Of a stretch of 47,171 nucleotides of DNA, positions 357-30,731 are shown in pieces. The notes beneath the pieces are model-generated. The model did not search any database and was not told the origin of the DNA. It worked only from the letters and a program-made list of their open reading frames with translations. The position numbers were made by a program, and so were the translations under genes. Source of the stretch: an uncultured Gammaproteobacteria bacterium. Lineage in GTDB: Bacteria; Pseudomonadota; Gammaproteobacteria; Pseudomonadales; Azotimanducaceae. Each line of letters begins with the position of its first letter. The stretch's first letter is position 1. The DNA is taken from positions 1-47,171 of the forward strand of contig CAJXCK010000005.1 in the NCBI GenBank assembly GCA_913051785.1, read 5' to 3'.

Positions 357-1280
357 TTAGTTGCCAAGGCGTGCTTGTATTTTTGAAATGATTTGAAGGA
401 AATACTTCCTGGCGCTTTCAAAAGATGTTGCCATACCGCAAAAGTCGTGGAGCATTCCCTCGCATATGAGGATTTCTGAATCATTGCCCGCTTCCAGCAA
501 CTTCTGAGCGTAAGCTAAACCCTCGTCTTTGAGAGGATCGAATTCGGCGACAACGGTCAGAGCCGCTGGGAGATCGGTCAGGTTGGTTGAGTTTATTGGT
601 GTGGCTCGGTTGTCCAGTCTCTGCTCGTTATCCGGGCAATACGTATCCCAAAACCATTTCATTACGCTTGTATCAAGCATAAATCCCTCGCCGTTCTCCT
701 GGTAGGATTTGCGCGTCAGGTCTGAATCCGTTACTGGATAGAGCAGGCATTGATAAGTAAGATCAAAATCACATTGATCACGGACCAATCTACTGACAAC
801 AGCGCTTAGGTTGCCGCCAGCACTCTCACCAGCGACGCCTATCTTGCCGTTCCCATTGACCGCTTCCATATTTTCGTTAGCCCATTTGGTGACGGCGAAA
901 CAATCTTCCACTGCCCCAGGGAAAATATGCTCCGGAGCCAATCTATAGTCGACAGAAATAACATTGAGTTCACCGATCGTGCTGATCTCTCTGCAAACAG
1001 CATCCGACGTATCTAGATCTCCAATAACCCATCCGCCACCATGAAAGAAAATCAAAACCCCCGTTGTCATACCGGGTTGATAGACCCTTACAGGGATGGG
1101 TCCGTTTGGTCCCGACACGGATTCACTTCGTATGGTGGAAACTTTTATATCCTCATTCACGGGACGCATCGCTCGGTAAAGAGCTCTTCCTTCATCTATG
1201 GGTAGTTCGCTGATGCTGGGTGTTGGATCTCCTGCGGCCAGTTGATCGAGCATTGCCCTATATTCTGGAGCTAGTGGCAT
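357..1280 (-). CDS. Alpha/beta hydrolase, hormone-sensitive lipase-type esterase
   Basis: HGGGW oxyanion motif, GESAGG nucleophile elbow, C-terminal LHDF; start chosen at MPLAPEY. Confidence 0.88.
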   Translation of the reverse strand: MPLAPEYRAMLDQLAAGDPTPSISELPIDEGRALYRAMRPVNEDIKVSTIRSESVSGPNGPIPVRVYQPGMTTGVLIFFHGGGWVIGDLDTSDAVCREISTIGELNVISVDYRLAPEHIFPGAVEDCFAVTKWANENMEAVNGNGKIGVAGESAGGNLSAVVSRLVRDQCDFDLTYQCLLYPVTDSDLTRKSYQENGEGFMLDTSVMKWFWDTYCPDNEQRLDNRATPINSTNLTDLPAALTVVAEFDPLKDEGLAYAQKLLEAGNDSEILICEGMLHDFCGMATSFESARKYFLQIISKIQARLGN

Positions 1281-1409
1281 TGAAATTTTCCTTTTTGACC
1301 CTACGATATCACCGTACACCATACTTTTTTCGATCTCTAGCGGTAGCCGAGGCAGCGCATGTGGTGTTTTTTATAGAAAAGCTATGCAGGCAGTATTAAG
1401 GATCATCAG

Positions 1410-2012
1410 ATGGCAGGAAAAAACGAGACAGATGAGGGACAGTCGTTGAGCGATGCAGCAAAAAGTTTCAATAGGCTGGAGAATACACTCTTACAAAATC
1501 GGACGCTGACACTCTTTGGGGAAATTAACCAGGACGTGGCTAGGAAAATGTCCGAGCGACTTTTAGGGCTGGCTTTTGAGAACGATGATCCAATAACGCT
1601 CTACATAGGCTCACCGGGTGGGCATGTAGAATCTGGCGACACGATTTTCGATCTTATTCAGTATATAAAACCTGATGTGAGGATAGTAGGGACGGGTTGG
1701 GTAGGTAGCATAGCAACGCACATTTACCTCGCGACGGACAAGAAACTACGATTCTGTTTGCCAAATACCCGATTCCTGATTCATCAACCAAGCGGTGGTT
1801 TTGGTGGCGATGCATCGGATATAGAGATACACGCTCAAGAGATTTTGAAAACCCGTGAGAGGATCAACGGAATTATTGCGGAAAGGACCGGTCAGACCCT
1901 CAAGAAGGTCACTGAAGACACACAGAGGGATTGCTGGATGAGTGCTGAAGAGTCAGTGAAGTACGGCCTGGTAGGTAAGATAATCGCGAACTTCAATGAA
2001 TTACCGGCTTAA
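1410..2012 (+). CDS. ClpP-like serine protease, divergent
   Basis: YIGSPGGHVESGDTIFDLIQYIKP, GWVGSIAT (Ser), RFLIHQPSGG (His), DTQRDCWMSAEESVKYGLV (Asp). Confidence 0.85.
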   Translation: MAGKNETDEGQSLSDAAKSFNRLENTLLQNRTLTLFGEINQDVARKMSERLLGLAFENDDPITLYIGSPGGHVESGDTIFDLIQYIKPDVRIVGTGWVGSIATHIYLATDKKLRFCLPNTRFLIHQPSGGFGGDASDIEIHAQEILKTRERINGIIAERTGQTLKKVTEDTQRDCWMSAEESVKYGLVGKIIANFNELPA

Positions 2013-3290
2013 TTCTTGAGATTTATTCAGTAAGAAGCCCAATCTAGTTTGATGGATCCCCCCCCATAACATGAGGAGGAGGGTGAATATCAGACCGTAC
2101 CGTAGTGAATCAACTCCGGCTGTGTCCGACATTAGGTCGCTGATGAGGCCGACACTAAAGGCTCCCAAGCCTAGGCCTATTATGTTTAGGACGAAGAGGT
2201 TTATTGAAGCCATCACAGCTCTCATTTCGACCGCTGCAAGAGACTGTAGAATTGCGAAATTAACGCCGATGTATACCCCGCCGAGAGCTGCGGGTCCCGT
2301 GAACCAAAATATTGCCCAGAAAGGATCTACGCTTTGATAGCAGAGTAAGCCCGCTGGCAGGTAACCCAAAATCGAGAAGCTCACAATCCAAGCCCTCCAA
2401 CCTTCTGAGATTTTCGATAGTTTATCTGCCAGCGCACCGCCTAAGAATGTACCGAGGCCGCCGCCTAATCCTATACCTAAGGCCAGGAACGTGCCTGACT
2501 CGCTCGTGCTGAACCCGTGGATACGCTGAAAATAGACCGGTGCCCAAGCGATGGCGGCGTAGCCAGCCATAGAAATCAGAGAGTTGCTCAACAAAAGTTG
2601 TCGAATGCGGTTGTCTCGCCACATGGTTTTAACAACTAGGAAAAAAGGGGGTGGTTTGATTTCGGACGTTAATCCATCCGAAAGACCTCTTGGTGGCTCT
2701 TTCATAGTGAATCTCACGGCGAGAGCTATCAACAGGCCAGGAGCACCTGCAATAACGAAAGCCCACCTCCAACCGACCCAATCATTTACCCATCCTCCGA
2801 TTAAGAAGCCAAACATAATTCCGAAATTGACTCCAAGGCCAAAAATTGCCATTGCAGTGGCTCTCTCTGCCGGCTCGTACAGATCAGCAATAATTGAGTG
2901 AGAAGGTGGATTAGACCCCGCTTCTCCAACAGCGACACCTATTCGTGCCGCCAGTAATTGCCAATATTGGCCTGCAGCCGCGCAGGCAACGGTCATCGCA
3001 CTCCACAGGGAGATTGAAAACGCAATCAGATTTCGTCTATTTCTCCGGTCCGCCCACATTGCCATGGGCATCCCGAGAGTTGCATAAAAAAGGGCGAACG
3101 CAAAACCGGTCAAAATTCCCAATTGGGTATCAGTCAGATCGAAAGCAATCCTTATAGGCTCTTGGAGAATAGCTACTATTTGGCGGTCTATATGACTTGC
3201 GATAAAGACCAGGAGTAGCAGAAAAAGTGTATAGCCACGTTGCCGTCGATTTTGCGTTTTGATGTCCACTACGTAATTATCGATCATCAA
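2001..3290 (-). CDS. MFS transporter (spinster-like)
   Basis: 429 aa, multiple TM segments, DRQIVAILQEPIRIAFDLTDTQLGILTGFAFALFY, ADRRNRRN motif. Confidence 0.88.
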   Translation of the reverse strand: MMIDNYVVDIKTQNRRQRGYTLFLLLLVFIASHIDRQIVAILQEPIRIAFDLTDTQLGILTGFAFALFYATLGMPMAMWADRRNRRNLIAFSISLWSAMTVACAAAGQYWQLLAARIGVAVGEAGSNPPSHSIIADLYEPAERATAMAIFGLGVNFGIMFGFLIGGWVNDWVGWRWAFVIAGAPGLLIALAVRFTMKEPPRGLSDGLTSEIKPPPFFLVVKTMWRDNRIRQLLLSNSLISMAGYAAIAWAPVYFQRIHGFSTSESGTFLALGIGLGGGLGTFLGGALADKLSKISEGWRAWIVSFSILGYLPAGLLCYQSVDPFWAIFWFTGPAALGGVYIGVNFAILQSLAAVEMRAVMASINLFVLNIIGLGLGAFSVGLISDLMSDTAGVDSLRYGLIFTLLLMLWGGIHQTRLGFLLNKSQELSR

Positions 3291-3341
3291 ACTAGCTGGT
3301 AAAAGATTTACATAAACGACTCGTTATCGTAGGAGATTTTT

Positions 3342-4199
3342 ATGGAATGGAAGTTATTGAAGGTAGAGAAGCGAGAGGGTCTGGTCACGGTTGTTATCAA
3401 TAATCCGCCGATAAATCTCATCACGCTTGACCTGTACCGAGAGCTTTCTCAGTTTGTTGAAAAAATGGCTGATGAGAAAGGGGTGTCGGTGATTCTTTTT
3501 AAAAGCGCGAACCCAGATTTTTTCATCGCTCATTTCGACGTCAGCGAAATTTTGAAGTTTCCCCTAGAGGGAGAGGTGAGGCCCCACCCAGAGCTCAACG
3601 CCTTTCACTTGATGTGCGAAAGACTGCGGAACATGGAAAAGGTGACGATAGCGCAAATAGAGGGGCGAGTTGGCGGAGGTGGTGGTGAACTCGTTGCGAG
3701 TATGGACATGCGCTTCGGCGTAAAAAACAAAACTATTCTTAATCAAATGGAAGTTCCTCTTGGAATCCTGCCTGGCGGATCCGGTACACAGCGGTTACCC
3801 CGAATAATTGGCAGAGGTAGAGCTATAGAGGTGATCTTAGGTGCCGAGGACATTGATTCGGTAACGTTGGAAAATTGGGGCTTTCTGAATAGGCTGTATG
3901 AACCCGACGAAATTGAAGAAAAGGTAGCTACCCTAGCGAGAAGAATTTCCCTCTATCCAAATCCAGCGGTCCGTTTGGCGAAAAGGTCGATCAATAACCA
4001 CGAGATGCCCTTGAATATGGGTCTCCAGCAAGAGGCTTATTTGTTCCAACAACTACTGAGAACTGAGGAGGCGCCTAAGGCAATGACGAGATTTTTGTTG
4101 GGCGGGGGGCAAACAAAAGAAGGTGAGCTCCGAGTGGCCGAGCTGTCGCTAGAAATAAACGAATCAAGCGTAGCGGTTGATGAGGAAAAAGGCGACTGA
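3342..4199 (+). CDS. Enoyl-CoA hydratase/isomerase family protein
   Basis: Crotonase fold signatures: VTVVINNPPINLI, IEGRVGGGGGELVASMDMRFG, GILPGGSGTQRLPRIIG. Confidence 0.85.
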   Translation: MEWKLLKVEKREGLVTVVINNPPINLITLDLYRELSQFVEKMADEKGVSVILFKSANPDFFIAHFDVSEILKFPLEGEVRPHPELNAFHLMCERLRNMEKVTIAQIEGRVGGGGGELVASMDMRFGVKNKTILNQMEVPLGILPGGSGTQRLPRIIGRGRAIEVILGAEDIDSVTLENWGFLNRLYEPDEIEEKVATLARRISLYPNPAVRLAKRSINNHEMPLNMGLQQEAYLFQQLLRTEEAPKAMTRFLLGGGQTKEGELRVAELSLEINESSVAVDEEKGD

Positions 4200-5267
4200 A
4201 GCACAGATAAACACCGGGACGATAGCTACCATCAGGGGAGGAAAATTAAAGACTAAGGTCATCGGGATCAAAAAGTCTTGAAGATATTTAAAACTAAGCC
4301 CGATAAAAAGGCCCACAGCTAATCTTGGGCCCATTCCCGTCTTTCTAACCGCTCCCAGCGATAGTGAAAGAGCTAAGAGAGCCATTGCTGCGTACATCGC
4401 AGGGCTCAGGATCCGACTTAGTATGAGAATTTTGTGAGTCTGATGATCCTCTGATTCAGGTTGAAGAGAAATCTGCCTGCTCAGGTCACTTATTGATCTC
4501 CTTTTCGGCTGCTGGATTGTCTTGTTGATCAGTTGTTCAGGAGTTTGTTGCAGTTCCCACGGGTACACCTTATGAGATTCGGTCGAAACTAAATTACCTG
4601 ATTTAGACGTCAGTTCGACCGAGTGCAGGGTCCATAGGTTGTCAGCGAATTTAGCGGAGCTTGCCTGAATGGCCCTAAAACTGTCATCGGAAGGATTCAG
4701 CGAGTATTCGTAAATATCTTCAAAAAAAGGATCCCCCGATCCATCAAAACCGGCTGCGCCGATTCGAATAAATCTCTCTTGATCTTTGATCCAAACATCT
4801 CGCTCCATCATGGACGAGTCTTCTTTGCTTTGATTAAGCATTTTGTACTTTTGTGCGAAAGCGTCGGACTTGGGAGTAGCGAACTCGCTCAGAAGGAAGC
4901 TGGCTAGTATAAAAGTTGTTATGGCGGGAAGGATTCCGATATAGAGTCTCCATGGGGAAGAGCCGATGAGCCTGACAGCCTGAATTTCGCTATTCTCCGC
5001 CAGTTCGCCAAGAGCGATTAAGCAACCCATAAAAGTTGAAAATATTAGAACTTCACCCAGCCTCCTCGGTGTAGATGAGAGAACGAAAACCGCTATTTCG
5101 GTTAATTGGTATCCGTGTGCCGCATCTGATAATTCCTCGAGAAATGCAAACATCGAAACGAGCGCAGTGAAACCCAACGTGACTGCTAAAACGGCCTTAA
5201 AGATTTGAAAACTAAGATATCGATCGAACTTTGTGAATCCTAGAATATTACTGTGCGCTGACCACAT
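4164..5267 (-). CDS. LptF/LptG family lipopolysaccharide export permease (LptG-like)
   Basis: Three N-terminal TM helices, GELAENSEIQAVRLIGSSPWRLYIGIL, periplasmic domain and C-terminal TM helices. Confidence 0.8.
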   Translation of the reverse strand: MWSAHSNILGFTKFDRYLSFQIFKAVLAVTLGFTALVSMFAFLEELSDAAHGYQLTEIAVFVLSSTPRRLGEVLIFSTFMGCLIALGELAENSEIQAVRLIGSSPWRLYIGILPAITTFILASFLLSEFATPKSDAFAQKYKMLNQSKEDSSMMERDVWIKDQERFIRIGAAGFDGSGDPFFEDIYEYSLNPSDDSFRAIQASSAKFADNLWTLHSVELTSKSGNLVSTESHKVYPWELQQTPEQLINKTIQQPKRRSISDLSRQISLQPESEDHQTHKILILSRILSPAMYAAMALLALSLSLGAVRKTGMGPRLAVGLFIGLSFKYLQDFLIPMTLVFNFPPLMVAIVPVFICASVAFFLINRYA

Positions 5268-5423
5268 GTTCTCTAACTCTTGAAAAGGAGGGATTTCTTT
5301 TTTTTCGCGATTTGAATTTAAAAACTACCATCTTTTTAGCCTTGTGACAGATGAAAAGATCCATTGCGCCTAATCCAAGAATGGCCACATACTCTTAAAT
5401 AAATTGACTCTTAGTGAACATAA

Positions 5424-6068
5424 ATGGGTTTGGAAATAATAGGCGCTGGGTTTGGGCGGACAGGGACTCTATCGTTGAAGTTTGCGCTGGAGGAGCTAGG
5501 GTTCAACAAATGTTATCACATGATGGAAATTCCAAAGGTTTCCCATCATATAAGCTCTTGGCGAAAAGCCGCGGCGGGGGAAAATGTCGATTGGCATTTG
5601 TTATTTCAGGGATATAAAGCAGCAGTGGACTGGCCTTCCTGCAATTACTGGAGGGAGCAGCTACGAGCTTTTCCGGAAGCTAAGATAATTTTGACAAAGA
5701 GAGATGCAGACGACTGGTATGAGAGCGTCATCAATACAATCTGGCCTGCTTCTGTAAAAGGGAGGGAACTAGCGAGATCGAACGAAAATTTGGATAAAGT
5801 GGCACAGGATAGATCTAGCATGGTCTTTGAGGTTATTTGGGATGGGATTTTTGACGATCGAATGTCAGAAAAAGACTTTGTCATTGATAAATATGAAAAA
5901 CATAATCAGTCTGTCATCGATGAAGTGCCCTCCTCAAAATTATTAGTCTACGAGCCAGGTGAAGGGTGGGAGCCCTTGTGTCAGTTTTTGGGGTGCTCGC
6001 AACCATCGATTGACTACCCCAACGTGAATTCAACGGAAGAATTCTCTAGCCGAATGAAATCGTCTTAA
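5424..6068 (+). CDS. Sulfotransferase family protein
   Basis: IIGAGFGRTGTLSLKFALEELGF (P-loop-like PAPS motif), YWREQLRAFPEAKIILTKRDADDWYES. Confidence 0.8.
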   Translation: MGLEIIGAGFGRTGTLSLKFALEELGFNKCYHMMEIPKVSHHISSWRKAAAGENVDWHLLFQGYKAAVDWPSCNYWREQLRAFPEAKIILTKRDADDWYESVINTIWPASVKGRELARSNENLDKVAQDRSSMVFEVIWDGIFDDRMSEKDFVIDKYEKHNQSVIDEVPSSKLLVYEPGEGWEPLCQFLGCSQPSIDYPNVNSTEEFSSRMKSS

Positions 6069-6082
6069 CACTGAATGATCGG

Positions 6083-6538
6083 CTAAGGATTCTGGCCTGT
6101 TATCAGTCCGAGAGGGAAAAGTAGAGCTATCAGAATGAAAGGGACTATAAAATTGAAAGACACGATGACCAAAAAACTTTGAGTTATTGTTTGATAAGTT
6201 CCCTGCATGTCTTTCTTAAACGTTTCGAGCATTCCACCCTGAGAGAAATGGGTGAGCAAAGTGCCCGTGATGCCCTGGGCAACCGACAAAATTAGAAAAG
6301 TGGACCACATATGGTTTATTGTCATAGTCTCTCCGGTGGCAGGGGCTAGCGAAGAAGATATTCCCATGAAGACAAGAAAGATAACTACGCACAGAGCAAA
6401 AATATAACCGGAGTATTGATTCATACCGAGGGCACGGTAATTTGAATAGAGCATATAGCCTCCTGCTAATATAGAGCCAAGTGCGCTTGCAATGCTTATG
6501 CTTGTCATAGAATAGAGTTTCGGTAGTTCTTTACTCAT
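6083..6538 (-). CDS. Hypothetical multi-pass membrane protein
   Basis: 151 aa with about four hydrophobic segments; no family recognised. Confidence 0.6.
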   Translation of the reverse strand: MSKELPKLYSMTSISIASALGSILAGGYMLYSNYRALGMNQYSGYIFALCVVIFLVFMGISSSLAPATGETMTINHMWSTFLILSVAQGITGTLLTHFSQGGMLETFKKDMQGTYQTITQSFLVIVSFNFIVPFILIALLFPLGLITGQNP

Positions 6539-6550
6539 TAATCACCCTAA

Positions 6551-8011
6551 TTAGAAAAGCTCTGGCACTCGAGTATAGTGCTTTGTTGCGGCTTCATAAG
6601 CGTTAGCTATTTTAAGTAATTCTAAATCGCCGTTCGGTTTCCCAACAAGCTGAATCCCCACTGGCAAGCCCTCTTTAGTAAAACCACCTGGCACGGATAT
6701 AGCCGGCAAACCTGTTACTGTTATCATGCAGCAGACCGACATCCAATCGATGTAAGTATCTAATTTAACCCCTGCGATCTCACTAATCCATTCTTGAGAC
6801 AGGTCAAACGGCGGTACCTGAGCAGCTGGGAGCAGTAATGCATCAAACTCCCTAAAGTATTCACTGATATCCTCGAAGATTCGGGTTCTCGTGGCCTCTG
6901 CACGAATCATATCTTCTATCTTTAAGCTAAAGCCCTTTTCAACATTCCAAATTGCGCTGTCTTTAGTAAACTCTCGCCAGTTGGGGACAGTTTTCTCCAG
7001 CAGATTCCCAAGTCCTCTCAGCCCCACAGCTCTTTGGGTTTGGAAACACTCCATAGCATCTTCAAGAGGTGGGTCTTTGAAGATGACTTCTGCACCGAGT
7101 TTTGAAAACATTTTTCCAGCTTCATCAATAATCGAAAGGACGCTCTGATCAATAGGTAACCCGCCCAGGGTGGGACTAACCGCTATTTTTAGTGGTTGGC
7201 TGCCATCTATTTTTCTTGCCGCTAATGCATCCAAAAAGTATTCGCCAGATTCTGGAAGTGTTAGAGGGTCCCTAGTATCGGGGCCTGCCATGACAGACAT
7301 CAACAAAATTGAGTCTGCGACCGAACGTGCCATGGGTCCAGTCGTCGACAATCTGCCGTACCAACCCAACCCTGGGTTTCTAGGTGTTCTGCCGATAGAG
7401 GGTCGAAACCCAACCACATTACAGAAGCTTGCAGGGTTTCTAAGCGAACCACCCATATCACTGCCATCAGCCAAGGGAAGCATTTTTGTCGCTAAAGCGA
7501 CCGCAGCGCCGCCACTGCTGCCCCCCGCGCTTCGAGTCACATCGTAGGGATTCCTTGTCGCACCGAACACGGAATTGAAGGTATTCGAGCCAAGGCCAAA
7601 TTCAGGCATATTGGTATGTCCGATGAATATTGCGCCGGCTTCGCGTAGACGAGAGGTAAGTAGCTCGTCTTCTTTTTCAATCTTTTTTGCAAAAGGAGCA
7701 AACCCCCTCGTCGTAGGGAATCCTTTCACAGCGATAGCATCTTTAGGGGCCAGAGGAATACCGTGCAAAGGCCCTCGATCAGATATCGGGACGTGATCAG
7801 CTAATACCGCGAGCTCCATCGCGGCCTCTTCGTCCAAAAGATTCACTATTGCATTAACATAGGGGTTGATCGCCCCTATCCGACGATAAATATTGCTCAT
7901 CAGTTCTTCAGAAGATATATCCCCCCTTTGCATGTCTCTACATAGGGTTAGGGCGTCGTCCCATAAAGGTTTTTCTGCGCTGAATTCATTTGTGAGTGTC
8001 TTTTCGCTCAT
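6551..8011 (-). CDS. Amidase signature family enzyme
   Basis: GIPLAPKDAIAVKGFPTTRG; TRSAGGSSGGAAVALATKMLPLADGSDMGGSLRNPASFC. Confidence 0.93.
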   Translation of the reverse strand: MSEKTLTNEFSAEKPLWDDALTLCRDMQRGDISSEELMSNIYRRIGAINPYVNAIVNLLDEEAAMELAVLADHVPISDRGPLHGIPLAPKDAIAVKGFPTTRGFAPFAKKIEKEDELLTSRLREAGAIFIGHTNMPEFGLGSNTFNSVFGATRNPYDVTRSAGGSSGGAAVALATKMLPLADGSDMGGSLRNPASFCNVVGFRPSIGRTPRNPGLGWYGRLSTTGPMARSVADSILLMSVMAGPDTRDPLTLPESGEYFLDALAARKIDGSQPLKIAVSPTLGGLPIDQSVLSIIDEAGKMFSKLGAEVIFKDPPLEDAMECFQTQRAVGLRGLGNLLEKTVPNWREFTKDSAIWNVEKGFSLKIEDMIRAEATRTRIFEDISEYFREFDALLLPAAQVPPFDLSQEWISEIAGVKLDTYIDWMSVCCMITVTGLPAISVPGGFTKEGLPVGIQLVGKPNGDLELLKIANAYEAATKHYTRVPELF

Positions 8012-8120
8012 GAGCTGAGTTTACCAAGGATCCTAATCTAGAACGCTGTCTAAATATTGATCCTTGCATTTACCTTGCTGTGCGCTAGGGTGATCGAACG
8101 AGGAGATTAATAGGAGCGGG

Positions 8121-9674
8121 ATGACCGAAATTCTTGCCAAAGATTCCAGCCTGGCACAGCGATTCTTGCCCGAAGGTGTAGATCGTTTGATCTTCGTTGG
8201 AAGCGTTCTAGTCATCATTGGATTATGCGCTCCGTTAGCGGCGTACCCTACCGAAGCGAAGATGCTCCTTGCCAAAGTGTTTGACGAACTTACGCATAAT
8301 TTTGGGGTCCTCTACCTTATGGGCTCATTCGGAGCTTTGTTATTTCTCTTGGGTTTGGCCGCGAGTCAATTTGGGAATATTAAGTTGGGTAACGTAGAGC
8401 CAGACTTCCCAACATTTAGTTGGTCGGCGATGCTTTTTTGTGGAGGAATTGGCACATCGATTCTGTATTGGGGCACTATCGAATGGACCCATTATTTCCA
8501 GAGCCCTCCGTTTGATGTTGAGCCAGGCACTGCTGAGGCGCTCTCGTGGTCAACCAGCTATCCGATTTTCCACTGGGGACCAATAGGTTGGGCTTTATAT
8601 TGCCTTCCCGGTGTGGCAATGAGTTATAGCTATCATGTACGAGGAGCATCGCTTCGATTAAGTGAAGCCTGTAGGCCGATTCTAGGCAAACTTACCGACG
8701 GACCTCTGGGCCGATTAATCGACCTATGCTTTGTTATCGGATTAGTCGGAGCATGCAGCACTGGTTTTGGACTGGCGATACCGCTTATTTCTACTGGCAT
8801 TAGTCAGATTCTTTCTTTGGACCAGGCTGCCCTGGGCTTTGCCCTGGAGTTTATAGTCATACTCTTCGTCACTGCGATTTTTTCTATTAGTGTCTGGTTT
8901 GGTCTAGAGAAGGGGATAAAGCGGCTTAGCGACTTAAATGTCTCATTAGCGATAGTCCTATTGCTGTTTATTTTTTTAGTTGGACCAACTTTATTTATCG
9001 TCGAGCTTGGTTTCGAGAGCGCAGGACATATGTTCCATAATTTTATCCGTATGAGCACTTGGACGGATTCAGCTCAAACCTCAAGCTTTGTTGAGGGTTG
9101 GACGGTTTTTTATTGGGCCTGGTGGCTTGCGTTGGGGCCCTATATGGGCATTTTTATTGCAAAAATCTCTCGCGGCAGGACGATCAGGCAGGTCATTTTA
9201 GGGTGTATAGGTTACGGGACTCTTGGATCGGCCGCCTTCTTCGCCATTCTAGGAAACTATGCGGTCTACCTGGAATTTAATAATCTTTTACCGGTAGTGG
9301 AAATATTAGAAGCAGGTGGTGGCGATACCGCAATTATTTCAGTACTTGGTACACTCCCGATATCTGGGATCGTCATTTTCTTGTTTACTGTTGTATGCGT
9401 TATCTTTGCTGCAACCAGCTATGACTCAGCCTCCTATACGATTGCTGCCTGTGCAACGAAAGATTTGGGTCGTGATGAACACCCGGAGCGTTGGCATCGA
9501 GTTTTTTGGGCATGTTTACTAGGTGTATTGCCGATCACCCTTATATATGTCGGAGGATTGGATTCCTTGAAATCGGCGGTCACAGTCTCCTCGGTTCCGT
9601 TGTTCGTGATCGTGCTGCTAGTAACGCTGTCGCTATGCAAATCGTTAGCTGCGGATCAAAAAACCGACCGTTAA
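8121..9674 (+). CDS. BCCT family betaine/carnitine/choline-type transporter
   Basis: 517 aa, CGGIGTSILYWGTIEWTHYFQSPPF, FYWAWWLALGPYMGIFIAKISRGRTIR. Confidence 0.92.
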   Translation: MTEILAKDSSLAQRFLPEGVDRLIFVGSVLVIIGLCAPLAAYPTEAKMLLAKVFDELTHNFGVLYLMGSFGALLFLLGLAASQFGNIKLGNVEPDFPTFSWSAMLFCGGIGTSILYWGTIEWTHYFQSPPFDVEPGTAEALSWSTSYPIFHWGPIGWALYCLPGVAMSYSYHVRGASLRLSEACRPILGKLTDGPLGRLIDLCFVIGLVGACSTGFGLAIPLISTGISQILSLDQAALGFALEFIVILFVTAIFSISVWFGLEKGIKRLSDLNVSLAIVLLLFIFLVGPTLFIVELGFESAGHMFHNFIRMSTWTDSAQTSSFVEGWTVFYWAWWLALGPYMGIFIAKISRGRTIRQVILGCIGYGTLGSAAFFAILGNYAVYLEFNNLLPVVEILEAGGGDTAIISVLGTLPISGIVIFLFTVVCVIFAATSYDSASYTIAACATKDLGRDEHPERWHRVFWACLLGVLPITLIYVGGLDSLKSAVTVSSVPLFVIVLLVTLSLCKSLAADQKTDR

Positions 9675-11606: not shown

Positions 11607-13808
11607 TCACTCATCTACCTTGACGCTGATTGATTTGTATCCGGCCTTTTCAATCGCTCGCGCTACTTGATTGGCGCTGTCAGGGCAGAGCGCTACTATT
11701 GATCCTCCACCTCCACCCCCTGAAAGTTTGGCGCCTACAGCACCGTTGATTCTTGCTAAGTGAATCAGTTCTTCGATTTCTGGCGTCGATAGCTGAAGCG
11801 CGTTCAGATATCCATGGCATAAATTCATGAGTTCCCCCAATTCAGACAGCTGGCCAGATTGCACTGCGTCTTTTGCCTGATTGGTGAGGCTTCCAATCTG
11901 GTCGAAAATGCTCTCATATCGGCCTTTGTGTTGATTCCAGGAGGCCCTAACCCTGGCTACCATCTCTGCCGTAAGACTTTCTTTACCGGTTATTCCTATT
12001 ACCAGTTCTAAAGGTTGGCCAAGAGTGAGAGTCTCAAAGTGAGGGTCATCTCTTTCTTTTTGATAAAATAGCGGCACGCCGTATGTTGCCACGGTGTTGT
12101 CTACACCAGACGCTTGGCCGTGCGCCGCTTGCTCGCACTTATAGGCTAAAGCATTTATTTCTGCGTCTTTGAGAGCTAGCTCGTAAGTTTTGTTGAGAGC
12201 CTTAATAATTGCCACCGCAAGGGCTGATGATCCCCCCAAACCCATTGCCTTAGGAACATTCGGAAATACCTCGATTGTCATTGCTTCTTTCGAGAGTTCC
12301 AGGTTGTGGATGAGCTGAGCCATAATACCTGGGATTCCCGGCGCTTCGGGAACGACTTTTTGCTCTACACCCCATCTGGGGATAATTACATCGATGCCTT
12401 TATTCGACACAGATGAACGCTTACGCACGCTCGCTTCAACGGCTAGTGGGATGGGCAGAGCAATGGCTGGTCGACCGTAAACTGCCGCATGTTCTCCCAG
12501 TAGAATGATCTTCCCAGAAGCGCTCTCACGATCCGCACTGTCCGGCCGCACTATCTTTCTCGCAATATCTTTCGCGATTTCCTGAGCTTTCCAAACTTTT
12601 ATTTCACCCGATTCAATTAGGCGCTCGACGACGGTCTCGAAATGCTCCTCCGAGACGCCTGCGCTGCTGGCCACGCTGCGTGCATGCAGATTCATATGAT
12701 TCTGACTGATTCCGCTGGTAGCCAAAGACCTGAGAGCGGCGAAATTCTGTGCTAGACCAACCGCGCTCATCAAGCCCGCCAATTCTGCTGCTCCTGGAGA
12801 ACCCAAAAGTCGATGATTGATCTTAACGCTCGGGTTGGTTTCTAGGGAACCTCCCACGGTCCCCACTTTGATAGGTATTTCAATTTCCCCCGTCAGAAAA
12901 CCATCCTCTTTTTTATGCCACTTCGTGAGCGCTTTATAGCGTCCAGAGCGCGAAGCATAAGCGTGCGCCGAGGCTTCGATTGCTCGCCAGTCATTACCCG
13001 TCGCGATTGCAAACGCATCTATACCGTTCATTATGCCCTTGTTGTGGGTGGCTGCCCGATAAGGGTCTGCCAATGCCAAATCGTTTGCCAGAACGATGCC
13101 ATTTCTCACTGATTCACCTGTGAATCCCTTGCCCTCTAGGTTAGCCACTGGAATCCTTACCTTTGTGCGAGCTATTGCCCTATCTGTCAGGTTTGAGAGG
13201 ATTCTTAGAAAGACCTTCCCATCAGTGATTTTTTCGACCAGTCCTGCCACGCCCTCACACATGGTGTTAACCATATTGGCGCCCATCGCATCTCTGGTGT
13301 CAACTAGCAGGTGCATCACGACCATCTCTCTCCCATCCTCTTCCGCCTTGTGATGGAAGACTTCTATGTCGATCGCGCCGCCTCCACGGGCGACCATCTT
13401 TGGGTGCAGGCTATTTGCGAGTGAGAGTATTTCTAGCTTTTCAGTCAGTAGCAATTCAGCTTTCTTCGAAGCGTCGCCATCAACGACTGATTGAACCTGA
13501 CCTATAAGGACAGTGTCGACCGGGTCGCTAAAGAATCCTCCACCCAATCTGGCAATGCGCGCGGCCCCTGACAGCCCAGCAACAATGGAGGGTTCTTCAA
13601 CTACTAATGGAATCACGTAGTCTCGGTTGTTAATCAGAAAATTTAGTGCAACGCCCAGTGGTAGTCCAAAAACACCTAATACGTTTTCGATCATTTTGTC
13701 GGCGACCGGCGCGTCTAATTGATGGTCTCTTGAGACTAGCTGATGCACATCGTCGCTGGTTAGGAGCCCTCGGCGATGGAGTTCAGATATCCTTTCGCTG
13801 ATGCTCAT
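11607..13808 (-). CDS. Bifunctional class II HMG-CoA reductase / mevalonate kinase fusion
   Basis: N-terminal half ENVLGVFGLPLGVALNFLINNRDY, DTRDAMGANMVNTMCEGVAGLVE, NHMNLHARSVA (class II HMGR); C-terminal half SGKIILLGEHAAVYGRPAIALPIP, MGLGGSSALAVAII, GAKLSGGGGGGSIVAL (GHMP mevalonate kinase); one uninterrupted frame. Confidence 0.93.
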   Translation of the reverse strand: MSISERISELHRRGLLTSDDVHQLVSRDHQLDAPVADKMIENVLGVFGLPLGVALNFLINNRDYVIPLVVEEPSIVAGLSGAARIARLGGGFFSDPVDTVLIGQVQSVVDGDASKKAELLLTEKLEILSLANSLHPKMVARGGGAIDIEVFHHKAEEDGREMVVMHLLVDTRDAMGANMVNTMCEGVAGLVEKITDGKVFLRILSNLTDRAIARTKVRIPVANLEGKGFTGESVRNGIVLANDLALADPYRAATHNKGIMNGIDAFAIATGNDWRAIEASAHAYASRSGRYKALTKWHKKEDGFLTGEIEIPIKVGTVGGSLETNPSVKINHRLLGSPGAAELAGLMSAVGLAQNFAALRSLATSGISQNHMNLHARSVASSAGVSEEHFETVVERLIESGEIKVWKAQEIAKDIARKIVRPDSADRESASGKIILLGEHAAVYGRPAIALPIPLAVEASVRKRSSVSNKGIDVIIPRWGVEQKVVPEAPGIPGIMAQLIHNLELSKEAMTIEVFPNVPKAMGLGGSSALAVAIIKALNKTYELALKDAEINALAYKCEQAAHGQASGVDNTVATYGVPLFYQKERDDPHFETLTLGQPLELVIGITGKESLTAEMVARVRASWNQHKGRYESIFDQIGSLTNQAKDAVQSGQLSELGELMNLCHGYLNALQLSTPEIEELIHLARINGAVGAKLSGGGGGGSIVALCPDSANQVARAIEKAGYKSISVKVDE

Positions 13809-13851
13809 TTTGAAAAAATTGGGAATCCGCGATGAGCTTCGGCTGTTTGGA

Positions 13852-14823
13852 CTATGCAGTGACTCTGACGCCATGCTCGGCTGTCTCCAAATTGAGGCAG
13901 ACAAATCCTGCCGATGTTGCGCTATCCACGAAGCTTTGCCTATTTTCCTTGTTTGTGTCGTCGCCGAAGGCCACGCCGATGTCGCCTCCACCGGCGCCAC
14001 AAGGTTTGTATGCAAGGCCATTTTGGTGGGCAATAGTACCCAACTTATTGTGCTCTGGCGAAAAAATATTTAGACCGCATGCATCGTCAAACTCTTTAAG
14101 GGTTTTTTGATAATGCAGAAGATTTTGAAGATGAAAGTTTTCTTTAGTTGTTTGGGATGATTCCTTGAGACTTTCGAGAGCTTTTTTATTTTGTTTCCCA
14201 TTTAATGATTGGAACTTACGGATGTGATCAAATGTCGTCGAACTTTTGCCGGTCCAGACGAACTCAATCCAAATTTCTGGGGGTAGGTAGAATTGTTGAG
14301 ATTCCGCATTCTGAAAAGAAATTATTTGTCCATGCCAGGATGCTGCTACATCCAGACCGCTCCCGGCACCGCCTTGCCAGGTTCTATGAATGTCTATTGC
14401 CTCTTTTATATTCGGCTCCCGATTTAGCACCTGACACAGGAGTCGGTAACTCGCAGTGCACACCGCGGCGGAAGATCCGAGCCCTAATTTTTTGCCCGAT
14501 AAAAAGAAGCTTGAACTATCGGTAATAATTTTAGAAGGCAGTAGTCCCTCGTCTGAAAGGTCCCGTAGCGTTACGAAACCAAATTTTTTCAGGATCGCCG
14601 AAATCAAGCTTGAACCACTTGAAGCTGGCAGTCTCTCCGGACTAACCAATTCAGGTACACTCTCGAAGCCTAAAGTCTCGAAGGCCCAGGATTCGCTACC
14701 CGTACTCTCCAAGCTGATTGATACGAAGGAGTTGGTCGCCAAAACGACTGCGGGGCCGCCAGCAAGCACTGAATACTCGCCCGTAAGCACTGCTTTTCCC
14801 GGTGCTACAGCTTTCATGTTCAT
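13852..14823 (-). CDS. Phosphomevalonate kinase (GHMP kinase)
   Basis: MKAVAPGKAVLTGEYSVLAGGPAVVLAT, KLGLGSSAAVCTAS, GQGGAGSGLDVAAS-like WQGGAGSGLDVAAS, KPCGAGGGDIGVAF. Confidence 0.85.
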   Translation of the reverse strand: MNMKAVAPGKAVLTGEYSVLAGGPAVVLATNSFVSISLESTGSESWAFETLGFESVPELVSPERLPASSGSSLISAILKKFGFVTLRDLSDEGLLPSKIITDSSSFFLSGKKLGLGSSAAVCTASYRLLCQVLNREPNIKEAIDIHRTWQGGAGSGLDVAASWHGQIISFQNAESQQFYLPPEIWIEFVWTGKSSTTFDHIRKFQSLNGKQNKKALESLKESSQTTKENFHLQNLLHYQKTLKEFDDACGLNIFSPEHNKLGTIAHQNGLAYKPCGAGGGDIGVAFGDDTNKENRQSFVDSATSAGFVCLNLETAEHGVRVTA

Positions 14824-14834
14824 TACTACTAAAC

Positions 14835-15764
14835 CTAAACCAAATGTGCGCCAGGACCGATGCTTGCCCAAATTAAGCGAACATTTTTTAGCTCTTCAAG
14901 ACTCTTTTGTATGATTGCTCGGCACTGTCTGGGATAAATCACTTTCACTTGCGGGCCTGCATCCATCGTGAAAAAGGCCGGCGTGCCGGCATTCCGAATT
15001 TCTCTGACCTGTTCCATTGCCGAAACCGTGCCGGGAGCCCAATAACTGATTGCTGGTTGGCTAGTGTGTATGACGCTATGCATTTTTAAGCAGTTTTGTT
15101 CAGCCACTTCAGAGAGCTTCATAAAGTCGCGCTCGACTATAGCTTTTTTAGCAATTTCGAAATCCGAATCAGCGGTCTTTATCCATTCCAAGTAAAAAGG
15201 CGAGGTCGCTTCAGAACTTTTCATCCCAGTAGTCGAAGAAATTTTTTTTGGGCCTTCGTTTGTAACAATGATGCAAATCTCGAGTTCCCAGTGGGACTCC
15301 TTAGCGAGCTGATCTGCTCTCCAGTCTGGACCTTGCAGCGTCACGAATCCACCATAAATCGATCTTGCGGAGCTTGCAGAACCTCTCCGAGCCCATTCGG
15401 ATAATGTTGAGAGATTCAGCCCGAGCTGGAAATGTTCGCTCAATGCAGTTACGAGGGCTGCAAATCCTGAAGCTGAAGACGCAAGACCAGCACCGGTCGG
15501 AAAATTGTTATCCGTCTCAACAGACACGGGTGGTAGTCCAAATTGCTGTCTAAACAAATCCAAGAAGTTGGCGACTTTCAAGTCTTCGATTCTTTTTCCG
15601 TTAAGTACGAGGCGCGTTTCTGTTGAGGTGGCAACTTTTGTTGTAGTAGTCAGACTGTCCAGAGTGATCGATACGCTGGGACTTGCTGGATGATTGAGCG
15701 TCTTATTTTGCTTGCCCCAGTATTTCACCAGCGCAATATTTGGGTGAGCAATTGCGGTGGTCAT
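14835..15764 (-). CDS. mvaD: Diphosphomevalonate decarboxylase
   Basis: AHPNIALVKYWGKQN, NFPTGAGLASSASGFAALV, ARRGSASSARSIYGGFVTLQG, FTMDAGPQVKVIYP. Confidence 0.92.
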   Translation of the reverse strand: MTTAIAHPNIALVKYWGKQNKTLNHPASPSVSITLDSLTTTTKVATSTETRLVLNGKRIEDLKVANFLDLFRQQFGLPPVSVETDNNFPTGAGLASSASGFAALVTALSEHFQLGLNLSTLSEWARRGSASSARSIYGGFVTLQGPDWRADQLAKESHWELEICIIVTNEGPKKISSTTGMKSSEATSPFYLEWIKTADSDFEIAKKAIVERDFMKLSEVAEQNCLKMHSVIHTSQPAISYWAPGTVSAMEQVREIRNAGTPAFFTMDAGPQVKVIYPRQCRAIIQKSLEELKNVRLIWASIGPGAHLV

Positions 15765-15766
15765 TC

Positions 15767-16093
15767 TTATTTTGTCTCGTCGGCTTCTGACCATTGTTCA
15801 GAAAGACCCTCGATTTTTTTGAGTATTTTGTCTTTCGTAAATGGAATATCCAGCAGCACCAAAGCGATTCCCAACGGAAACATCCAAAATCCAAGTATCG
15901 GTAGAAAACCAAAAATGCCGCCTATCATTAAGCCAAAGCCGCACAGACTTCTTATACCTGGTGGGACGCGTTCGTTTCCCCATTTCAGTACCCGATACGA
16001 TGTTCTCGCTATTTCCCTCTTCAGCCGGCTCTTACCAGAGTGATTAGTCCTTGGGATTATGCGATCGTTATCAAGATCATTGGAATCGGACAT
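15767..16093 (-). CDS. Small putative transmembrane protein
   Basis: 108 aa with hydrophobic segment GFGLMIGGIFGFLPILGFWMFPLGIALVLLDI; tightly linked upstream of mvaD. Confidence 0.65.
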   Translation of the reverse strand: MSDSNDLDNDRIIPRTNHSGKSRLKREIARTSYRVLKWGNERVPPGIRSLCGFGLMIGGIFGFLPILGFWMFPLGIALVLLDIPFTKDKILKKIEGLSEQWSEADETK

Positions 16094-24988: not shown

Positions 24989-25798
24989 ATGAACAAATTT
25001 CAGTCGTTTTTTGACAACGTCCGCTCTAACCGAGTTTTTGAAAGTATTGTGATTTTAGTTATCGTTTCCTCAGCTGTGATGGTCGGAATCAACTCCTATG
25101 ATTTGGATCCAAGGTTGTTAAGCATCATTTTCGTCTTCGATTTTGGAATCACGCTGTTTTTTCTTGTTGAGCTGACTGTAAGATTCCTGGGCGAACCCAA
25201 TAAGCGAGAATTTTTTAAGTCCGGTTGGAATATTTTCGACACAATGATTGTGTCGATAAGCTTGATCCCTATCGATGAGTCAGAGTTAGTTTTTTTGGGG
25301 AGACTAATCCGTATTTTTCGTGTTTTGAGGATGATTTCGATTATTCCCGAGCTCAGATTGTTGGTGAATTCTTTATTGCGGGCCCTACCACAACTTGGTT
25401 ATGTCGCTCTTTTAATGTTCATTATATTTTATATCTATGCCGCAATCGGAAACTCTCTTTTTCAGGAGATTGACCCAACTCTTTGGGGAAACATCGCGAT
25501 CAGCCTGTTGACGCTTTTTAGGGTGATGACTTTTGAAGATTGGACGGACGTCATGTATGCAACGCAAGCGGTTTATTGGTGGAGCTGGGTCTATTACCTA
25601 TCTTTTATTTTTCTCACGGCGTTTGCTTTTCTAAATATGATTATTGGTATTGTCGTTAAGGTTCTGGAAGAAGAACATCGTGCTGAGGAGGCAGCAGCAA
25701 AAGAAAGCGAGTTTGGGGGGCCTGAGCCAACTCTCTACGAGATCAAACAGCAGCTGGATGACCTGAGAGATCTCTTAAATAAGAAGACAGTCAGCTGA
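24989..25798 (+). CDS. Single-domain voltage-gated-type cation channel (ion transporter)
   Basis: S4-like GRLIRIFRVLRMISIIPELRLL (Arg every third residue), pore LLTLFRVMTFEDWTDVMYA, six predicted TM segments. Confidence 0.88.
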   Translation: MNKFQSFFDNVRSNRVFESIVILVIVSSAVMVGINSYDLDPRLLSIIFVFDFGITLFFLVELTVRFLGEPNKREFFKSGWNIFDTMIVSISLIPIDESELVFLGRLIRIFRVLRMISIIPELRLLVNSLLRALPQLGYVALLMFIIFYIYAAIGNSLFQEIDPTLWGNIAISLLTLFRVMTFEDWTDVMYATQAVYWWSWVYYLSFIFLTAFAFLNMIIGIVVKVLEEEHRAEEAAAKESEFGGPEPTLYEIKQQLDDLRDLLNKKTVS

Positions 25799-28256
25799 CT
25801 TTTCTTTTTTGAGGAATGTTTTTGACCAGTTCTCTCTTGGCTGCTTTCCTCTCGTATTTCTTGGCCGGGGTGTTAACGATCTCTGCTAGTTCTATTCTTC
25901 GGAGTCCTTGAGCGATCCGCTCTTTGCCGACGTTTGAGTATAAGGTATTTCGTTGGCGCGCATTTCTATTCAGCTGATGAATAATGGTATTCATCTCGTT
26001 GGGTGTTGTTTCTTGTCCATGCATCGTTCCAGCCGCTCTGCTGATCGACTCGTTCATCAGTGTGCCGCCAAGATCATTTGATCCGGCATTTAGGCAAGCT
26101 TTAACACCCTCATGTCCCATCTTTACCCAGCTTGTTTGTATATTATCTATCTGACCATGCAGTACTAATCTCGATACGGCGTGCATCAGGACGGCCTCTC
26201 GAAAAGTAGGTCCCTTCCTCGCTTTGCCCTTCAGATACATAGGTGCTTCCATGTGCACAAAGGGCAGGGGGACGAATTCCGTAAACCCTCCGGTGCGGGC
26301 TTGTAGGTCGCGAACTCGAAGTAGGTGACGAGCCCAGTGAATGGGTTTCTCCACGTGTCCATACATGATTGTCGCCGTGGTTTTAAACCCGAGCTCGTGT
26401 GCAGTTTCCATTACCTCCAACCATTGAGCTGTATTTACCTTATCCGCGCATATAATTGATCGGACCTCATCATCTAGTATTTCCGCAGCTGTCCCAGGAA
26501 GAGTTCCTAAGCCCGCCTCTTTTAGTCTTGTGAGATACTCTCGAAGGCCGACTCCAAGAGTAGCCGCTCCTTGCCATACCTCTAGAGGCGAGAAAGCATG
26601 TACGTGCATTTCGGGCACCGCGTTTTTGACCACCTCAAGGATATGCAGGTAGGTTTCCCCGGTATATTCGGGGTGAATTCCGCCTTGCATGCAAACCTCA
26701 GTTGCACCCCTATCCCAGCCTTCGGTAGTCCTACGAGCTATTTCTTCATCCGATAGGTCGTATGGTCTCCCTCTGAGATTTTCAGACAACTTTCCCTTTG
26801 AAAAAGCGCAGAATTGGCACTTGAAATAGCAGATGTTGGTGTAATTGATGTTCCTGTTCACAACATAGCTAACGGTGTCTCCATTTACCTGCTGTCGAAG
26901 ACGGTCAGCAGCCTGAGTGACGGCATTAAAGTCATCACCCCTGGCAGCAAAAAGGCGAACAATCTGGTTTTCATCAATGCGCTCACCCCTGGTACACGCG
27001 TTGATAATCTCCTCGATATCCTGTGAGGTTTTAGATGGCTGTGTTATTAAGGCACTCATTAGCTCACCGGGAGGGGAGGTCTCAGGGTCTCCTGGGCTCC
27101 ATTTATCTATCCGTGGAAATCCCTCGCTGTCCACTAAGTCTAGAACTCGCTCGTGCAAGTCTGGATGCACCCAATTTTCTAATTCCATGGCGAATCGAGG
27201 GTAAACGGTCAGCCGTTCCGTTAGATATTTCCCCGCATTTGCTGTTTCTCTAGAGAGTTCTTCAAGGTGAGGCCAGGGGGCCTCCGGATTCACAAAGTCG
27301 GGGGTGACGGGTGAGACACCTCCCCAGTCATTAATTCCAGCATGCACGATTTGCGGCAGCACCCCGGGGCTCAAGTTTGGTGGTGCCTGAACGCTCATAT
27401 CTGGTCCGAACATTATTCGAGCGCATGCAATTGTCCAAAGAAGCTCATTCAAATCTGGCTCGGGGGCACTTACCATCTTAGTGCCTTCCTTGGCTCTAAA
27501 GTTTTGGATGATGATCTCTTGAATATGTCCATATTCTTGTTGGATTTTGCGAAGCTCTAAAAGGCTTTCTATGCGCTCGCGTCGTGTCTCCCCGATGCCA
27601 ATCAAAATTCCTGTTGTGAAAGGAACCTTAGCTATGCCGGCATTGCGAAGCGTTTGCAGACGAACTGAAGGCGCTTTGTCTGGTGACCCGTAGTGCGGCA
27701 TACCTTTTTCACACAATCTTTCGGAAGCTGACTCCAGCATAATTCCCATCGAAGGAGAAACCTCTCGTAAGTCTTCCAATTCTTCTGGCTCCAAATTGCC
27801 AGGATTCGCGTGCGGCAACAATCCTGTTTCTTCAAAAACAGCCTTGGCAGCAGCCTTCAGGTACTGCGTTGTTGATTCATAGCCTGCCTCCGCAAGCCAT
27901 TCTCTCGCCGCCCGATATCTTAGCTCTGGCTTTTCACCCAGCGTAAAGAGCGCCTCTTTACAACCCATTTTTTGTCCATCTCTAGCGAGTTCTATGACTT
28001 CTTCTATCGAGAGATAGGCGGATTTAAGTTTTCTAGGGACAGTCGCGAAGGTGCAGTAATGGCAGACATCGCGACAGAGGTGAGTCAGCGGTATGAAGAC
28101 CTTTTTGGAGTAGGTGACAACGCTATTAAAGCCCTGATTACGAAGGTGACTGGCAACATCTGCCAGCTCCTTTGTGCTTGCCGTTTCAGATAAGTCGAGT
28201 ATCTCTTCATCGCTGAGTGCCTGCCCCGATCTTGCTCTGATTAAAAGATCTTTCAT
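25791..28256 (-). CDS. fbiC: FbiC: CofG/CofH fusion, 5-deazaflavin (Fo) synthase
   Basis: 821 aa with two radical-SAM CxxxCxxC clusters: LTHLCRDVCHYCTFA and NYTNICYFKCQFCAFSKG. Confidence 0.95.
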   Translation of the reverse strand: MKDLLIRARSGQALSDEEILDLSETASTKELADVASHLRNQGFNSVVTYSKKVFIPLTHLCRDVCHYCTFATVPRKLKSAYLSIEEVIELARDGQKMGCKEALFTLGEKPELRYRAAREWLAEAGYESTTQYLKAAAKAVFEETGLLPHANPGNLEPEELEDLREVSPSMGIMLESASERLCEKGMPHYGSPDKAPSVRLQTLRNAGIAKVPFTTGILIGIGETRRERIESLLELRKIQQEYGHIQEIIIQNFRAKEGTKMVSAPEPDLNELLWTIACARIMFGPDMSVQAPPNLSPGVLPQIVHAGINDWGGVSPVTPDFVNPEAPWPHLEELSRETANAGKYLTERLTVYPRFAMELENWVHPDLHERVLDLVDSEGFPRIDKWSPGDPETSPPGELMSALITQPSKTSQDIEEIINACTRGERIDENQIVRLFAARGDDFNAVTQAADRLRQQVNGDTVSYVVNRNINYTNICYFKCQFCAFSKGKLSENLRGRPYDLSDEEIARRTTEGWDRGATEVCMQGGIHPEYTGETYLHILEVVKNAVPEMHVHAFSPLEVWQGAATLGVGLREYLTRLKEAGLGTLPGTAAEILDDEVRSIICADKVNTAQWLEVMETAHELGFKTTATIMYGHVEKPIHWARHLLRVRDLQARTGGFTEFVPLPFVHMEAPMYLKGKARKGPTFREAVLMHAVSRLVLHGQIDNIQTSWVKMGHEGVKACLNAGSNDLGGTLMNESISRAAGTMHGQETTPNEMNTIIHQLNRNARQRNTLYSNVGKERIAQGLRRIELAEIVNTPAKKYERKAAKRELVKNIPQKRKVS

Positions 28257-28921
28257 AACCGTGCCCCCCGATCGAGGCTGTCGATCAAGCGCTCCTCAAT
28301 ACCGGATCTCGATAGGTAAGTAGCCGTCTGCGTTCTTGGAGCTTCTTGCATCACGCGGAGCAAGTCCTCGGGCAAGTCAATATCTAACGCAAAACGACTA
28401 GCCGGCACAATCTTGGGGCTAAAGTTTTTTGAGTAGGCCGCATTAACGTGTGGTTTAAAACTTTTTCCATCGAAAATGTACGGAATAGCTAGGGGCGGGG
28501 AGGATATTAACCCGTTCGTGCCTATGTTATCGGAGTCCGGCATGATCGTAATGCCCGGATTACTTCTAATTAGGAGGTCAACCTCCTCGGCCTCGATAGC
28601 GGGTACATCGGCAGGGACGACTACAATACCTTCTGCGTTAAAGTTCGCAACGAGATGAAGAGTTGCCTGCGTCAGTGCCTCCGCCAAACTTGCGCTGGGG
28701 CTTTCGCTGAAACGTTCCGTTGCGAAAGCTGCAGCTAGGGAATCCGCTTCTCGTGCTCGTGACACAATCAAGATTCCTGAGAGTTCTTTACAGCTTGATA
28801 GGGAGGTAATTACATCTCTGGCCATCGCGAGCATCAGGCCTCTTCGCTCTTCTTCACTTAGAACATTAGAGAGGCGCTGTTTCGCTCGATCGAACGTTTT
28901 GATGGGTACGATAGCCCACAT
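28253..28921 (-). CDS. cofC: CofC/FbiD-type guanylyltransferase of F420 biosynthesis
   Basis: MWAIVPIKTFDRAKQRLSNVLSEEERRGLMLAMARDV; VVVPADVPAIEAEEVDLL; FALDIDLPEDL; ATGA overlap with fbiC. Confidence 0.9.
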   Translation of the reverse strand: MWAIVPIKTFDRAKQRLSNVLSEEERRGLMLAMARDVITSLSSCKELSGILIVSRAREADSLAAAFATERFSESPSASLAEALTQATLHLVANFNAEGIVVVPADVPAIEAEEVDLLIRSNPGITIMPDSDNIGTNGLISSPPLAIPYIFDGKSFKPHVNAAYSKNFSPKIVPASRFALDIDLPEDLLRVMQEAPRTQTATYLSRSGIEERLIDSLDRGARL

Positions 28922-29021
28922 GAAGACCTCCTGATGTTCGGTTGAAGATACAGCGAGTCCCCCTATTCAAGCTCCTTTTTTTGCTTGACTGAGTTGGAGC
29001 CGCTTTTTTGAAGGTCTCTGT

Positions 29022-29945
29022 CTAAAGAAAACGCTCCAAAAAGCCCAAACAATTCTCTGCCAGAGAAATGCTATCCGATAACGTTAACATGACGGTGTTG
29101 GTACTTATAGTGGGGATTTTGATCGAATTGGCGCTTTCTTTGTCAGCCTCATCTATTACAAAACCATCAATGAAAGCTGAATAATGCTCGGCTACACTCT
29201 CAGCGCTAGATGAAATGCCAAGCTCCCTCATCATTTTTGCTGCCGGACCTTTTAAAGCCCTTCCCCCGATGATCGGGGAGACTGCAATGGTTGGAATCTT
29301 TGCTAATTTCTCTTTCACTCCGTTTAACTTTAAAAATGGATCAACGGATACATAGGGATTGGATGGACATATGATGATTCCCTGGCACCCCTCAATCCAC
29401 TGGTCCAGCTTTGCTTGGAGACTCGCACTTTCTATTCCTTGGAAGCGAAAACCATTCACTTCAGGTTCGCACTTTTCTTTCACAAAATAGTTCTGAAAAG
29501 AAAGTTCGCCGTCGCAGGTATCTACCAAAGTCGAAACCGGTTGGTCGCTCATTGGTATGATCGGATGCCGGATCCCAAGTTTTGCTGCAATAGCTTCGGT
29601 CGCCTCGGTTAACGTTTTTCCTTTGTTTAACATAGTCGTGCGATGCAGGTGGAGCGCGAGATCTTTATCGCCCAATTGAAACCATGTATCTCCGCCTAAT
29701 TCCTTCAGCGCCGAGAGGAAATTCCAACTTTCTCCTTCTCTGCCCCACCCAGTTTCAGTGTTGTTTATCCCCGCTAGGGCATAGGTCAAGCTGTCGATGT
29801 CAGGGCTGATCTTGAGTCCCAAGTGTTCGAAGTCGTCACCTGTGTTTACCGCAAACGCAAGATCCGATGGGTCCAATACTGAGGCCAACCCGCTGGCAAG
29901 TTTTGCACCTCCGACGCCACCAGTTATAGCTAAGATACGAGGCAT
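29022..29945 (-). CDS. cofD: CofD/FbiA 2-phospho-L-lactate transferase
   Basis: ILAITGGVGGAKLASGLASVL; VNTGDDFEHLGLKISPDIDSLTYALAG; WFQLGDKDLALHLHRT. Confidence 0.95.
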   Translation of the reverse strand: MPRILAITGGVGGAKLASGLASVLDPSDLAFAVNTGDDFEHLGLKISPDIDSLTYALAGINNTETGWGREGESWNFLSALKELGGDTWFQLGDKDLALHLHRTTMLNKGKTLTEATEAIAAKLGIRHPIIPMSDQPVSTLVDTCDGELSFQNYFVKEKCEPEVNGFRFQGIESASLQAKLDQWIEGCQGIIICPSNPYVSVDPFLKLNGVKEKLAKIPTIAVSPIIGGRALKGPAAKMMRELGISSSAESVAEHYSAFIDGFVIDEADKESANSIKIPTISTNTVMLTLSDSISLAENCLGFLERFL

Positions 29946-30727: not shown

Positions 30728-30731
30728 TTAA

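Follow-up and report, generated by a model that had tools for sequence, protein, structure and literature searches.

The 47,171-nucleotide stretch of DNA analysed here (the window), from an uncultured gammaproteobacterium, carries a single gene in which HMG-CoA reductase (HMGR) is joined to mevalonate kinase (MK). On sequence grounds, we predict with a probability of about 0.82 that this gene encodes a bifunctional biosynthetic enzyme, which feeds the phosphomevalonate kinase (PMK) and diphosphomevalonate decarboxylase (MDD) of its operon and replaces the MEP pathway. In the proposed scheme, the N-terminal class II HMGR would reduce HMG-CoA to mevalonate, probably with NADPH, and the C-terminal kinase would phosphorylate that mevalonate to 5-phosphomevalonate. 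PMK and MDD would then yield IPP, standing in for the lost MEP pathway.

The gene is on the minus strand, where positions 11607-13808 form an open frame of 733 codons with no internal stop; translated on the plus strand, the same stretch is interrupted by many stops. The original prediction of an uninterrupted 733-aa frame was correct in that there is one frame and no stop. Its start, however, had to be moved, as the Met at 13808 is internal. We placed the start 66 bases upstream, at ATG 13874, because the motif SRIPNFF just N-terminal to Met 13808 is conserved in nearly all homologues and because this ATG is preceded by a likely ribosome-binding site, GGAGA. The resulting protein has 755 aa (Table 1), and the HMGR sites E94, K279, D295 and H393 in its numbering correspond to E72, K257, D273 and H371 of the 733-aa frame. 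In the latter, Pfam HMG-CoA_red (PF00368) covers residues 4-376 (334 bits), followed by GHMP_kinases_N at 506-576 and GHMP_kinases_C at 646-724. Only HMG-CoA_red and GHMP domains matched in Pfam, which detected no thiolase domain in the protein. Among NCBIfam models, the best match to the HMGR part was TIGR00532, the "degradative" HMGR (371 bits, cutoff 260), and the kinase part matched the mevalonate kinase model TIGR00549 (242 bits, cutoff 163). Thus, the Pfam matches and both above-cutoff NCBIfam scores bore out the predicted succession of a complete class II HMGR and a complete GHMP mevalonate kinase.

Table 1. Features of the fusion gene and its operon in the window (residues in 755-aa numbering)
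Feature	Position	Strand	Basis
HMGR-mevalonate kinase fusion gene, 755 aa	11607..13874	-	ATG 13874, stop codon 11607-11609; Pfam/NCBIfam, homologue N-termini
Likely ribosome-binding site GGAGA, 9 bases before ATG 13874	13884..13888	-	sequence reading
HMGR catalytic and cofactor domains, residues 1-388	12711..13874	-	PF00368; E94, K279, D295 = P. mevalonii E83, K267, D283
HMGR C-terminal three-helix flap, residues 389-440	12555..12710	-	predicted helices; catalytic His393 = P. mevalonii H381
Short inter-domain linker, residues 441-449	12528..12554	-	model confidence minimum ~442-444; length and sequence vary among homologues
GHMP mevalonate kinase domain, residues 450-755	11610..12527	-	TIGR00549; K455, E461, S549, E581, D592; fold match 6mde
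Phosphomevalonate kinase-like GHMP kinase	13852..14823	-	start inferred; TIGR01220 best match, below cutoff
Diphosphomevalonate decarboxylase (MDD)	14835..15794	-	TIGR01240 279 bits, cutoff 171

Both active sites look intact. The equivalents of P. mevalonii E83, K267, D283 and H381 are invariant in 82/82 fused homologues, as are K433, E439, H440, S527, E559 and D570 of the kinase (733-aa numbering), and these homologues are ~50-80% identical to the window protein. A bifunctional HMGR and mevalonate kinase is therefore well supported and very likely. Structural comparison with Foldseek matched the HMGR half to P. mevalonii HMGR (TM 0.9 over the target), the closest folds being class II enzymes, and the kinase half to M. 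mazei mevalonate kinase (TM 0.88 over the target). P. mevalonii HMGR (1qax, 4i4b; ~48% identity) and E. faecalis HMGR (7m3h; ~38% identity) have the same fold as the window HMGR and share all of its catalytic residues, but their solved chains end after the flap, whereas the window protein continues into the kinase. Similarly, M. mazei mevalonate kinase (4hac, 6mde; ~32% identity) shares the GHMP fold and the catalytic Lys, Glu and Asp; it is a stand-alone enzyme, whereas the window kinase directly follows HMGR without a start of its own.

The fusion is the last gene of an MDD-PMK-HMGR:MK operon, in which PMK and the fusion share 23 bases, the 3' end of the former running past the start of the latter. 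The PMK gene is best described as PMK-like, its score being below the TIGR01220 cutoff. MDD and PMK were found upstream, on the same strand and in the same order, in 44 of the 50 loci with enough flank. Several loci contain additional genes: L161 has the order MDD-PMK-HMGR:MK-IDI-HMGS (HMGS, HMG-CoA synthase), L145 adds IDI, HMGS and the hopanoid gene hpnH to the operon, and in Rhodanobacteraceae-like loci IDI, hpnH, hpnA and an hpnB-like gene adjoin it. The location of the mevalonate operon beside hopanoid genes in L066, L072, L143 and L145 (hpnH, with hpnA and an hpnB-like gene also in L066) suggests a link to hopanoid synthesis in these lineages. Long open frames in the Rhodanobacteraceae-like loci were considered as MDD-PMK fusions and rejected, as the two genes occupy separate overlapping frames. 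A triple fusion in L047 (1119-aa open frame) was also rejected: its extra 380 residues match neither the window PMK or MDD nor the family HMGS, and therefore only its HMGR-MK part is taken as real. Directly upstream of MDD in the window, a predicted 108-aa protein (15767-16093, minus strand) has no Pfam or NCBIfam match.

In the window's family (f1), dxr was missing from 12/12 fusion genomes tested and present in all three fusion-less f1 genomes of the order panel. Since the fusion and the MEP-pathway gene dxr are mutually exclusive in this family, the fusion probably supplies all isoprenoids there. A panel of 61 family genomes comprised 17 with dxr, 16 with HMGS and IDI and no dxr, 24 with IDI and neither dxr nor detectable HMGS (two of them single-contig), and four in which none of the three was detected. 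HMGS was absent from 11 of the 12 fusion-bearing genomes of this panel. A PF01154 search, which found HMGS in the controls (L. lactis and four archaea), gave no match in the window's genome, two sampled congeners or the single-contig relatives G317 and G385. The same split was obtained with a family-specific HMGS alignment, which scored at least 680 bits or nothing and matched neither the window's genome nor either congener. The genome of the window, at 93% completeness, yielded no IDI. The family HMGS (L090, L143, L161 and others) is a divergent type, unusually long at ~490 aa; that of L143 scored 172 bits against a TIGR01835 cutoff of 360.

The lack of a recognisable HMGS in most fusion-bearing genomes tested parallels the situation in most Legionella, for which an unexplained absence of HMGS was reported (PMC13001223). 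In trypanosomatids and halophilic archaea, a flow from leucine to mevalonate has been described (PMC6832408). The window's genome contains, at 505-9201 of locus L182 (contig C71), an acyl-CoA carboxylase pair, an enoyl-CoA hydratase, acyl-CoA dehydrogenases and AtuA, a gene content that resembles acyclic-terpene or leucine-type catabolism. It is possible that HMG-CoA is derived from catabolism of this kind.

Two genomes of the window's order, G210 and G290, have HMGR and MK as two adjacent genes rather than the single fused gene of the window. They share the MDD-PMK-HMGR-MK order, which continues with IDI, hpnH, HMGS and FPP synthase, and their HMGR is 53-55% identical to that of the window; L143, with its IDI and HMGS, is a split-gene locus. 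In the HMGR tree, on which our conclusions rest because the MK-domain tree has very long outgroup branches, all fused proteins and this split pair formed one clade (100/98). When two long-branch rows were removed, the fused proteins formed a clade of their own (86/81) with the split pair as sister, whereas with these rows the pair fell inside the fused set, although a single fused clade was not rejected (p-AU 0.22). The split pair is probably the sister group of the fused proteins, and the simplest reading of the tree would be that HMGR-MK adjacency came first and was followed by one fusion event. Later fission in the split pair, as the tree with the long-branch rows would have it, is a less simple reading, and the sister position recovered without them argues against it.

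As both domains are fused, HMGR and MK are made in a fixed 1:1 ratio, and the enforced stoichiometry that had been proposed follows from the fusion itself. Class II HMGR is reversible and can re-oxidise mevalonate. Our best guess at a benefit is that 1:1 production and proximity would trap mevalonate, in the form of phosphomevalonate, before it could escape from the cell or be re-oxidised. The fusion may, however, bring no kinetic benefit. We give slightly less than even chances to a neutral history, in which the adjacent HMGR and MK genes lost a stop once and the product was kept since both halves work, with co-translation and no special kinetics. The separate adjacent genes of G210 and G290, probably sister to the fused ones and in the same operon order, are consistent with such a history, as is the variability of the linker, the least conserved region in 82 fused homologues (mean major-residue frequency 41%, compared with 70-80% in the domains). 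On the other hand, no clear re-split was seen among about 85 fused homologues in several families, which suggests some pressure for retention, yet re-splitting is rare for any fusion.

The position of the kinase on HMGR bears on whether mevalonate could be channelled. An AlphaFold2 model built with 55 fused sequences had a mean pLDDT of 87.7 and a pTM of 0.59, indicating that the halves fold well and that their mutual placement is not fixed. Flap helices were predicted at 389-404, 412-422 and 427-440 (755-aa numbering), and the kinase starts 9 residues past the last of them. As class II HMGRs carry out the reaction, their flap shuts over the active site, and in E. faecalis HMGR it closes over mevalonate and NADP (PMC10070635); the fused kinase would thus be mounted on a moving part. 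In the model, it is attached via a short flexible linker to the mobile catalytic flap, hanging from the third flap helix and so from the piece that would close over the HMGR site in each cycle. True channelling, a direct hand-over of mevalonate between the HMGR and kinase sites that avoids bulk mixing and is aided by the flap-mounted kinase, would fit the 9-residue spacing and the flap closure known from E. faecalis. We nevertheless regard it as unlikely, since the pTM defines no domain arrangement, the linker is of low confidence, fused homologues differ in its gap (9-36 residues), and no fixed interface or tunnel is evident in the model. Similarly unlikely, in our view, is a combined scheme in which flap opening presents mevalonate to the flap-riding kinase, the breakdown of leucine or acyclic terpenes provides the HMG-CoA for a pathway that has lost HMGS, and the fusion pulls this HMG-CoA toward isoprenoids. 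Internal initiation yielding a free kinase was rejected, as a start codon at the linker is not conserved (ATG in 16/85 fused homologues).

The NADH-dependent HMGR of P. mevalonii has D146, Q147, L148 and L152 at its cofactor positions, and the NADPH-dependent enzyme of E. faecalis has Tyr, Pro, Ser and Arg at the same four (PMC10070635). The fused proteins have His (82/82), Pro (80/82), Lys, Asn or Arg, and Arg (82/82), respectively. The cofactor site of the window protein resembles that of NADPH enzymes, unlike that of P. mevalonii HMGR, whose Asp146 is kept in most sampled stand-alone HMGRs of the P. mevalonii-like branch. In the 733-aa frame, the residue that corresponds to P. mevalonii Asp146 is His135, and Asp147 was therefore rejected as an NADH determinant. 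These residues predict that the fused HMGR uses NADPH and hence has a biosynthetic role, despite the family label. A catabolic enzyme, with HMGR working in the reverse direction to turn mevalonate into HMG-CoA, as the P. mevalonii enzyme does, and the kinase incidental, would agree with TIGR00532 as the best NCBIfam match. We consider it very improbable, given that PMK and MDD share the operon, that dxr is absent, and that the NADH-type Asp146 is replaced and the NADPH-type Pro147 and Arg152 are present.

About 85 distinct fused HMGR-MK proteins were found in several gammaproteobacterial families, and the closest ~74 loci in contigs of GTDB species were all fused, except for two truncated where the contig or locus ends. 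Among named records, the carriers were K189A clade single-cell genomes, HTCC2089-labelled MAGs, Pseudomonadales MAGs, Candidatus Azophilus (family Ca. Azotimanducaceae) and Rhodanobacteraceae or Lysobacterales MAGs. The full fusion occurred in 16 of 392 genomes sampled across the order (15 in the window's family and one in f38), in nine of 369 sampled across the class (from six families, with one further case at the edge of a contig in f210), and in only two of 399 sampled across the phylum, both gammaproteobacterial; none was detected in the non-gammaproteobacterial genomes sampled. How widespread the architecture is, a point left unanswered by the original prediction, can now be stated: it is widespread in some Gammaproteobacteria and was not detected in the sampled genomes outside them. 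It is clade-wide and conserved across many, mostly uncultured, gammaproteobacterial lineages. One MAG labelled Alphaproteobacteria (UBA2966; locus L034) has a fusion nested among the gammaproteobacterial ones and is probably mislabelled. The possibility that two genes were joined artificially, by misassembly or a frameshift, can practically be dismissed, because about 85 independent homologues are fused in frame, their linker lengths differ, and some come from single-contig genomes (G317, G385) or a chromosome (OX638346.1).

Elsewhere in the window, a coenzyme F420 biosynthesis cluster (25791-31613, minus strand) was detected, here in a gammaproteobacterium. It encodes an FbiC-like 821-aa radical SAM protein, CofC, CofD, CofE and an F420-dependent oxidoreductase. 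Two luciferase-like monooxygenases adjoin it, and an ion channel protein (Ion_trans; 24989-25798, plus strand) lies beside it.

Fused enzymes of the mevalonate pathway are already known. MvaE of Enterococcus and Streptococcus, in which acetoacetyl-CoA thiolase is fused to class II HMGR, is likewise a natural bacterial fusion of this kind. The domain make-up differs, as had been claimed: the partner of HMGR in MvaE is the thiolase, which acts two steps earlier in the pathway, whereas in the window fusion it is the next enzyme, MK, placed after the C-terminal flap of HMGR. A published description of the HMGR-MK pairing was not found in the open-access full-text literature searched. The HMGR reaction is commonly taken to limit the rate of the mevalonate pathway, and its natural fusion to the next enzyme is a building block that isoprenoid engineering could use as it stands. 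Split relatives that share the operon also allow a clean test, set up by nature, of whether it matters that consecutive enzymes are tethered, and the apparent absence of HMGS from most fusion-bearing genomes tested makes the question of HMG-CoA supply a testable one.
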